A stretch of DNA of 64,000 nt from Terriglobales bacterium. GTDB lineage: Bacteria; Acidobacteriota; Terriglobia; Terriglobales; Acidobacteriaceae. Shown here in pieces: positions 29,529-31,016 of this stretch. The notes beneath the pieces are model-generated. The model was not told the DNA's origin. It did no database searches and saw only the letters and a program-made list of their open reading frames with translations. The position numbers and the translations under genes were made by a program. Each line of letters starts with the position of its first letter. The stretch's first letter is position 1. Where the stretch lies: NCBI GenBank assembly GCA_035691485.1, contig DASSIZ010000103.1:1-64000 (forward strand), written 5' to 3'.

Positions 29529-29954
29529 ATGAAACGCGATTATCCTGAGCGTCCGCTGGTCGGCGTCGGTGCCGTCATCGTCAGCCAGGGGAGGGTCGTG
29601 ATCGTGCAGCGCTCCGCAGAGCCGCTGAAAGGGCAGTGGTCAATTCCCGGCGGCGCGCTCGAGATCGGCGAGACTTTGCGCCAATGCGCCGCCCGTGAAG
29701 CCCTGGAGGAGACCGGGCTGCAGGTGGAGGCCGTAGATGTGCTCGATGTCTTCGACAGCATTTATGCCGACCCCGACGGGCGTACCCGCTACCATTACGT
29801 GCTCATCGATTTCTTTTGCCGCGTGCTCGGCGGCGAACTCAAGGTCGGCAGCGACGCCGCCCAGGCGCGCTGGATTAGCCGCGACGAGCTTGCAAACTTC
29901 AACATCGCGGAAACGGCGCAGAAGGTTATTATGAAGGCCCTCGATCGACATTAA
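29529..29954 (+). CDS. Nudix hydrolase
   Basis: A 141-residue Nudix enzyme. The Nudix box GALEIGETLRQCAAREALEETGL fits G-x5-E-x7-REUxEExGU exactly at about residues 44-66. The start RPLVGVGAVIVSQGRVVIVQRS and the RYHYVLIDFFCRV strand are typical of MutT/ADP-ribose-like members. The substrate (a nucleoside diphosphate derivative) cannot be fixed from sequence. The DinB gene follows after 33 bases with a GAGAGAG ribosome binding site. Confidence 0.9.
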   Translation: MKRDYPERPLVGVGAVIVSQGRVVIVQRSAEPLKGQWSIPGGALEIGETLRQCAAREALEETGLQVEAVDVLDVFDSIYADPDGRTRYHYVLIDFFCRVLGGELKVGSDAAQARWISRDELANFNIAETAQKVIMKALDRH

Positions 29955-29987: not shown

Positions 29988-30518
29988 ATGTTTGCCGTGA
30001 ATTTGAACGATTTCATCGCCTACACCGATTGGGAGCGCAAGCTCTGGTACAGTTGGTTCCTGCAGCATGGTGAGCAGGTTCTGAAGATCGGCGTCGGCCC
30101 GCACAGCGACGGACGCTTTCAGACCGTCGGCGACATGGTTCGTCACATCTTTTCCGCGGAAAAACGATACGCCGAACGCCTCTCCGGGCAGCCCTTAACC
30201 GACACCGCTGCCATCCCCACCGACAATGTCGAGGCGCTTTTTCAATTCGGCGCGCAGAGCCGGAAAGAATTCCGGGCCATGCTCAATGCCGTCCCGGCGG
30301 GCGATTGGGATACTCCCAGGGAGTTCAAGATCTTGACCTCTGTCGTCCAAGCTACTCCGAGAAAAATCGCTGTACATGTCCTGGTGCATGAAATCCGCCA
30401 CTGGGCCCAAGTTGCCACCATGCTTCGCTTCAACGGGCTGAAAGGCGACTTTCACGATTTTCTTTTCAGCCCTGTGCTCGGCAGCGAAAGCGCCCGCGAA
30501 CAGAACCAGTCTCGCTAG
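29988..30518 (+). CDS. DinB-family putative metalloprotein
   Basis: A 176-residue four-helix-bundle protein of the DinB/YfiT type. The three metal-binding histidines are recognisable: VRHIFSAEKRYAERL near residue 50 and HVLVHEIRHWAQVATMLR near residue 130. DinB-family proteins include thiol-dependent transferases; the reaction here is unknown. GAGAGAGAT precedes the ATG at 29988. Its 3' end faces the terminator of the minus-strand RNA candidate. Confidence 0.85.
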   Translation: MFAVNLNDFIAYTDWERKLWYSWFLQHGEQVLKIGVGPHSDGRFQTVGDMVRHIFSAEKRYAERLSGQPLTDTAAIPTDNVEALFQFGAQSRKEFRAMLNAVPAGDWDTPREFKILTSVVQATPRKIAVHVLVHEIRHWAQVATMLRFNGLKGDFHDFLFSPVLGSESAREQNQSR

Positions 30519-30524
30519 ACTACG

Positions 30525-30567
30525 ACAAAACAAAACGACCCGCGGCTCGATTGCGGCACGCGGGTCG
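30525..30567 (-). terminator. intrinsic terminator of the minus-strand RNA
   Basis: On the minus strand, CGACCCGCG pairs perfectly with CGCGGGTCG (9 bp; plus-strand arms 30536-30544 and 30559-30567, 14-base loop) and is followed by TTTTGTTTTGT. The T-run is only on the minus strand, so it ends a transcript coming from higher coordinates and not DinB. Confidence 0.85.
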
Positions 30568-30756
30568 CCGGTAGTCTGTTGGGATTGGCCTGAGGCGGTC
30601 ACTCTTCTTCACCCCGGCTCTGCTTGCGGTCCGGGACGACTGCGACCTGTTAGCCTCCGGGACTCCAGCACTGACTCTGGAGTGGCGTTGGGCCAAACAC
30701 ACCGGAACTTGAGGTTGGTTTAGAGCGCACCGCTCTAAGCCTCAGACACCTCACTG
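30525..30756 (-). ncRNA. structured free-standing RNA, 6S-like candidate
   Basis: Between DinB and the ZIP gene there is no protein-coding signal, but the minus strand can fold extensively. A distal stem pairs CUGAGGC (30745-30739) with GCCUCAG (30596-30590). Inside it a perfect 8-bp hairpin UUAGAGCG-gug-CGCUCUAA (30738-30720) is followed by a perfect apical 7-bp hairpin ACUCCAG-n8-CUGGAGU (30683-30662). Extra pairings (GCC/GGC, UCCGG/CCGGA) extend the apical arm into a rod. The intrinsic terminator follows. The size (about 190-230 nt) and closing stem / bubble / terminal stem layout resemble 6S RNA. SRP RNA, tmRNA and RNase P core motifs are absent. The 6S assignment is inference. Confidence 0.55.
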
Positions 30757-31016
30757 CGGTTTTGTATATGACTGTCAATCATGTTGACCTGGACCACCCC
30801 CTTTCTCAGTGTAGCCGCAGATTAATACAGGTCGCGGAAACCCGTCAAATTCAGCTTCTCTGCCGCTGATTACTACCGGGATGCTGATTTCCCGGGTTCC
30901 GGCCAGAATTCAGTTGCTTTTCGATCGTATCCGTCGCACGAGCCTATTTTCCAATTCCAATTTTCGCAATTCCGCAATTGTTCCATTGTTTCCCTCTGCT
31001 ATGCTGCTGCGTCCTC
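30757..31016. other. leader region between RNA candidate and ZIP gene, with AT-rich repeat words
   Basis: TTGACA (minus strand, 30778-30773) and TATACA (30768-30763) are promoter-like pieces near the 5' end of the RNA but are not correctly spaced to each other. CCAATTCCAATTT (30951-30963) is shared exactly with 37877-37889. A plausible plus-strand promoter for the ZIP gene is TTGTTC (30978-30983), 16 bases, TATGCT (31000-31005). Confidence 0.4.

Follow-up and report, generated by a model that had tools for sequence, protein, structure and literature searches.

A free-standing small RNA of Terriglobales, related to actinobacterial Ms_IGR-5, carries a conserved micro-ORF tied into its fold

We analyzed a 64,000-nucleotide stretch of Terriglobales DNA (the window) and found that the 498-base gap between DinB (ending at 30518) and a ZIP transporter gene (starting at about 31017) holds a small RNA gene on the minus strand. 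Comparison with relatives shows that this RNA has its own predicted promoter and its own predicted terminator, both of which are conserved. It is a divergent homologue of Ms_IGR-5 (RF02471) that lies below the Rfam threshold and, as far as sequence tells, works like Ms_IGR-5. The RNA contains a micro-ORF with a conserved frame, and the end of that ORF takes part in two covariation-supported helices, P1 and P2 (Table 1). This arrangement suggests that the RNA may report on translation, because ribosomes on the frame would need to unfold the RNA's own structure. We put at about even the chance that this homologue of Ms_IGR-5 stands alone, is translated, has a fold that translation opens, and acts in trans. 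The first-pass annotation had delimited the gap correctly and viewed it as gene-free. There is indeed no annotated gene in the gap, but the conserved 15-codon ORF had been overlooked.

Table 1. Features of the small RNA and its promoter in the window, in 5' to 3' order on the minus strand
Feature	Sequence	Positions	Strand	Remarks
-35 element of sigma70-like promoter	TTGACG	30843-30848	minus	upstream conservation peaks at TTG (75 acidobacterial loci aligned at ACAC)
-10 element	TAATCT	30819-30824	minus	consensus TAnnnT, 18-nt spacer; from aligned upstream profile
Whole small RNA		30526-30813	minus	about 288 nt; 5' end placed from conserved UACAC start and promoter spacing
P1 5' strand	CACUG	30807-30811	minus	covaries with 30752-30756
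Extended Shine-Dalgarno	AAAGGGGGUGGUCCAG	30789-30804	minus	pairs 16/16 (two G-U) with 16S tail CUGGAUCACCUCCUUU
Micro-ORF	MIDSHIQNRSEVSEA	30735-30782	minus	stop UAG; 15 codons; conserved frame
P1 3' strand	CAGUG	30752-30756	minus	within micro-ORF; covaries with 30807-30811
P2a 5' strand	GGUGUCUG	30743-30750	minus	codons of E-V-S, within micro-ORF; pairs with 30570-30578
P2b 5' strand	GGCUU	30737-30741	minus	last sense codons and first stop base; covaries with 30587-30591
P3 hairpin	UUAGAGCG/CGCUCUAA	30720-30738	minus	contains stop codon; conserved in own family
Apical hairpin	ACUCCAG/CUGGAGU	30662-30683	minus	part of genus-specific insertion; only in same-genus loci L001, L003-L005
P2b 3' strand	AGGCC	30587-30591	minus	covaries with 30737-30741
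8-nt side of 1x8 internal loop in P2	AAUCCCAA	30579-30586	minus	conserved; single downstream match in 173/188 loci
P2a 3' strand	CAG-acu-ACC	30570-30578	minus	pairs with 30743-30750
Intrinsic terminator	GCGACCCGCG...CGCGGGUCG, then UUUUGUUUUG	30526-30568	minus	stem sequences vary among relatives, pairing kept

A blastn search with the stretch gave matches in 106 of the 298 genomes of the order Terriglobales. Conservation, rather than folding energy, is what establishes the RNA. The earlier proposal of an independent RNA gene that ends in its own terminator is supported. Conservation was confined to query positions 31-144 and 256-335, which puts the beginning of the conserved unit upstream of 30756, the position previously taken as the RNA boundary; the predicted start lies about 57 nt further upstream, at 30813. 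When the 75 acidobacterial loci were aligned at ACAC, the upstream profile read TTG, an 18-nt spacer, TAnnnT and then 6 nt to the RNA start. TTGACG at 30848-30843 and TAATCT at 30824-30819 therefore place the predicted transcription start of the window RNA near 30813, and the RF02471 model begins at ACAC too. At the other end, the terminator stem precedes TTTTGTTTTG. This terminator is absent from the list of a consensus terminator scanner, presumably because its loop exceeds the length that the scanner allows.

We trained a covariance model (R1) on 23 own-family sequences only and searched the phylum with it. R1 matched 63 of 396 genomes, with one copy in each: 42 of the 44 own-family genomes, together with members of six other families, other classes included. 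The distant acidobacterial copies retain the anatomy of the RNA, and the order of elements in homologues is constant (promoter, UACAC, extended Shine-Dalgarno, short ORF, GUGAGGUGnCUG...UAG, hairpin, variable middle, AGGCCAAUCCCAACAG..UACC, terminator). When each species was represented by one genome, a scan with a sequence pattern for the 5' half gave at least 120 loci, mostly in Actinobacteria, with further loci in Zixibacteria, Sumerlaeota, Deltaproteobacteria, Spirochaetia and others. Loci L102, L133, L129, L096, L114 and L119 are the copies in Deltaproteobacteria, Spirochaetia, Sumerlaeota, Zixibacteria and one unassigned bacterium. Outside these groups, 12 whole genomes, including Streptomyces and Mycobacterium and all chosen via the 5'-half pattern, each gave a single significant match to R1.

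The actinobacterial loci tested with cmscan, and the Zixibacteria locus, were named Ms_IGR-5. Coincidence of RF02471 with R1 provides a test of homology that is free of pattern bias. A search of 149 acidobacterial genomes with RF02471 returned six matches, every one at a locus already found by R1 (G315, G358, G382, G398, G414 and G422). Because the two models meet independently at six loci, the window RNA family and Ms_IGR-5 are homologous. Among the 149 genomes, a single relative (G422, 50.6 bits) passed the RF02471 gathering cut-off of 45 bits, and in the window stretch RF02471 found nothing at E<=10; it also had no match in the host genome or in the own-family genomes listed. The Rfam model of Ms_IGR-5 is shown to be too narrow, since it misses these own-family genomes though R1 finds the RNA widely. 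Both conserved blocks of Ms_IGR-5 are present in the window RNA: the 5' block ACAC..GGAAGGAGGUGGUCC..GUGAGGUGnCUG, and the 3' block AAUnCC..CAG..ACC adjoining the terminator, which was absent from the 5'-half search pattern. The two RNAs share 5' ACACnGGAAGGAGGUGGUCC, GUGAGGUGnCUG, the micro-ORF frame and stop, and 3' AAUnCCnnnCAGnnACC followed by the terminator, and both are free-standing with one locus per genome. They differ in that P2a is one pair shorter and P2b is shifted by one, and also by an extra middle domain and the family-specific stop-codon hairpin P3.

Rfam lists Ms_IGR-5 as an actinobacterial sRNA of unknown function; its discovery in M. smegmatis is attributed to Li et al. 2013, as cited in PMC10454040. 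Transcripts of Ms_IGR-5 homologues have been detected in M. smegmatis, S. lividans and S. avermitilis. In the open-access literature, we found no account of the Ms_IGR-5 ORF, its fold or its occurrence beyond Actinobacteria. The first-pass suggestion of an undescribed acidobacterial sRNA thus holds in that the acidobacterial form is unannotated, but the RNA is homologous to one already known.

The same annotation had favored 6S RNA as the best known class, which the length, the free-standing position and the rod-like energy fold of the RNA would suit. However, RF00013 has no match at the locus, the host's 6S RNA is encoded on another contig (C24:18988-19178, 70 bits), and the supported fold lacks the rod-and-central-bubble shape. 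The separate 6S gene, together with the R1 and RF02471 matches at the same loci, refutes this assignment, to which we give virtually no credence. Neither Acido-1 (RF01686) nor Acido-Lenti-1 (RF01687), which had been proposed as Rfam checks, matches the locus with its covariance model, and no other relevant Rfam family was hit there. SRP RNA and tmRNA had rightly been set aside: their models have no match at the locus, and each RNA was found elsewhere in the genome.

The micro-ORF is conserved in a manner that follows its reading frame. All 197 loci close the frame GAG-GUG with a stop exactly five codons later (15 nt after GAG), and the stop is UAG in 170, UAA in 14, UGA in 12 and unreadable in one. 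A stop whose position is fixed while its identity varies is hard to explain without translation. A start codon lies in this frame 6-15 nt after the Shine-Dalgarno, with the frame open throughout, in 187 of the 188 non-redundant loci, compared to 32 and 1 for the other frames. Modulo 3, the distance from Shine-Dalgarno to GAG takes each of the three values about equally often (68/61/59 of the 188 loci), which indicates that the RNA may freely vary in length ahead of the start codon but not behind it. The comparative evidence argues strongly that the micro-ORF is translated, and ribosome-protected fragments are on record for the mycobacterial homologues only, in M. abscessus and M. smegmatis (PMC4974804). 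A supposedly non-coding actinobacterial sRNA family proves to span several phyla, once per genome, with a frame-conserved micro-ORF tied into its fold, and mutants of the start and stop codons, beyond deletion of the RNA, become the relevant test. Since M. smegmatis and Streptomyces carry the RNA, the question is directly testable in model organisms. The prevalence of UAG (170 of 196 readable stops) is unexpected for GC-rich genomes and could stem from a release-factor-1 effect or from RNA pairing.

Conservation of start, frame and stop over phyla would also be expected if the RNA were an mRNA for a functional micropeptide, with a structured 3' part that merely stabilizes the message or aids termination. 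Own-family peptides repeatedly show an acidic/serine pattern (D-S/C), and the first half of the ORF has a mild excess of synonymous changes (0.26-0.44 observed versus 0.18-0.27 expected within groups, transition bias uncorrected), which leaves room for some selection on the peptide. However, the peptides have 11-19 residues with a freely varying N-terminal part that is poorly conserved between groups before R/S-E-V, and only M and [R/S/G/C]-E-V-x-x-x are common across phyla. The E-V codons are invariant even at third positions in relatives found by blastn or covariance model, as expected from base pairing, and the 3' element AAUnCC...CAG..ACC is conserved as much as the ORF. We consider a micropeptide message unlikely. 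The peptide is probably for the most part a by-product, its second half fixed by RNA helices and its first half poorly conserved. A type I toxin was also rejected, the peptides being short and hydrophilic.

Translation of the micro-ORF would begin at an unusually long Shine-Dalgarno, and every copy of the RNA has a strong one. The 16S rRNA ends in CUGGAUCACCUCCUUU in two genomes of the order, and an exact match to this end was not found in the window's own assembly. The motif AAAGGRGGUGRUCC occurs in the genome solely at this locus. Contiguous complementarity of 13-16 nt to the 16S tail (G-U allowed) is present in 106 of 107 actinobacterial loci and in most distant loci, a count that for Actinobacteria is partly built in, as much of the complement was in the search pattern. 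The length and uniqueness of this complement would fit a decoy for the 16S 3' end, one that holds or meters free 30S subunits while the short ORF lets them cycle off. Yet a single inserted base splits the pairing in 36 of 51 own-family loci, and a decoy leaves the conserved P2 and 3' element unexplained, so we judge it decidedly unlikely. The Caulobacter sRNA CC2171 (RF01867) starts GAAAGGAGGUGAUCCAG, likewise a 16S-tail complement, and may thus be a second case of an extended Shine-Dalgarno on a free-standing RNA; its model matches 30717-30813 at only 13.4 bits (cut-off 75), and no further resemblance was seen.

The helices P1 and P2 tie the ORF to both ends of the RNA. In P1, CACN at the 5' end pairs with NGUG inside the ORF; the variable pair is G-C, U-A, C-G or A-U, the second pair is A-U or G-C, and A-U to G-C exchanges are seen across phyla. 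In P2a, ORF GGUGnCUG pairs with CAGnn(n)ACC, and in P2b the final sense codons, together with the stop's initial base, pair with the nucleotides just before AAU, the two parts being separated by the 1x8 internal loop. In alignment A1, 98.9% of P1 and P2 cells were paired, a value reached by none of 500 shuffles and compared to 28-40% in slid registers. The paired share of P2b was 90, 74 and 100% in three groups across phyla versus 5-71% when slid, and within Actinobacteria alone P2b pairing barely exceeded within-group shuffles. The matched changes include GGCUU/AGGCC, GACCU/AGGUC, GACUU/GAGUC, AACU/AGUU, UACUUAG/UUAAGUA and GCGAUAG/CUAUUGC. Because P2a is nearly invariant, its support comes from few changes, and parts of it (CAG, CC) were fixed by the regular expressions of the motif search.

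The hairpins and stems described by the first-pass annotation are all present on the minus strand. Its closing stem CUGAGGC/GCCUCAG (30739-30745 with 30590-30596) shows no two-sided changes, with 93.7% of cells paired versus 94.1% after shuffling; the compensatory changes sought there are found instead in the overlapping helices P1 and P2. In the own family, the P2 5' strand can alternatively form this stem, mutually exclusive with P2b, and the stem could be an alternative state that has no matched changes. Energy minimization of the window RNA yields a fold other than that with P1 and P2 (-90.6 kcal/mol versus -79.7 kcal/mol with P1 and P2 enforced). Compared to shuffles, the minus strand gave a z score of -2.7 (3/200 shuffles) and the plus strand -3.5; folding energy alone therefore proves nothing, because the plus strand scores better than the minus strand. 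A resemblance of CGAAUCC to a T-arm was dropped because the segment flanks the helix formed with the ORF.

These features are consistent with a two-state RNA. Pairing of the extended Shine-Dalgarno with the 16S tail would load 30S subunits, and elongation followed by termination at the fixed stop would carry the ribosome through the P1 3' strand and the P2 5' strand. Given the geometry of the ribosome, both of these strands lie under it during termination at the conserved stop. With the ORF occupied, both helices would be open and the 3' element AGGCC-AAUCCCAA-CAG-nnn-ACC unpaired, and P1 and P2 would close when no ribosome is present. The toggle between a translated, open state and an untranslated, closed state would control the action of the 3' element or the stability of the RNA in trans. 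In its fullest form, which we offer tentatively as a possibility, the RNA would be a switch that senses translation, found from Actinobacteria to Acidobacteriota, Zixibacteria, Sumerlaeota, Spirochaetia and Deltaproteobacteria, in which ribosomes are drawn by a near-complete complement of the 16S tail to a throw-away micro-ORF that serves solely to have P1 and P2 opened and the conserved AAUCCC-CAG element exposed to act in trans. The 3' element has 7 nt of complementarity to 16S rRNA, the same as shuffles, and rRNA was rejected as its target.

An ordinary trans-acting antisense sRNA would share the own terminator, the single copy and the lack of conserved neighbors. In such an RNA, the exposed C/A-rich 3' element or ACCGCCUC, which resembles anti-Shine-Dalgarno seeds, would pair with target mRNAs, and translation would be incidental. 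The conservation of frame and stop is too strict for incidental translation, however, and ACCGCCUC is not conserved beyond the own family; we regard this explanation as quite improbable. The RNA resembles dual-function sRNAs (SgrS, SR1, RNAIII) as a stand-alone RNA of regulatory size with a short ORF, but here the ORF overlaps both core helices, and conservation is stronger at its start and stop than in its peptide. Similarly, leader-peptide attenuators (trpL, rnTrpL) use translation of a short ORF to decide between RNA folds. In contrast, the window RNA has no downstream regulated gene, as examined at the locus and in other lineages, and its P2 adjoins the terminator without competing with it, so that termination appears constitutive.

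The neighboring genes are not conserved between lineages, from which we infer that the RNA acts in trans, and the downstream gene is convergent. A cis leader of a neighboring gene was rejected on these grounds, in agreement with the earlier view that the RNA is not a leader of DinB. At L007, a locus from another genus, a NUDIX gene like that at window positions 29529-29954 lies downstream of the RNA without an intervening DinB, which suggests that DinB came to adjoin the RNA in the window's lineage.
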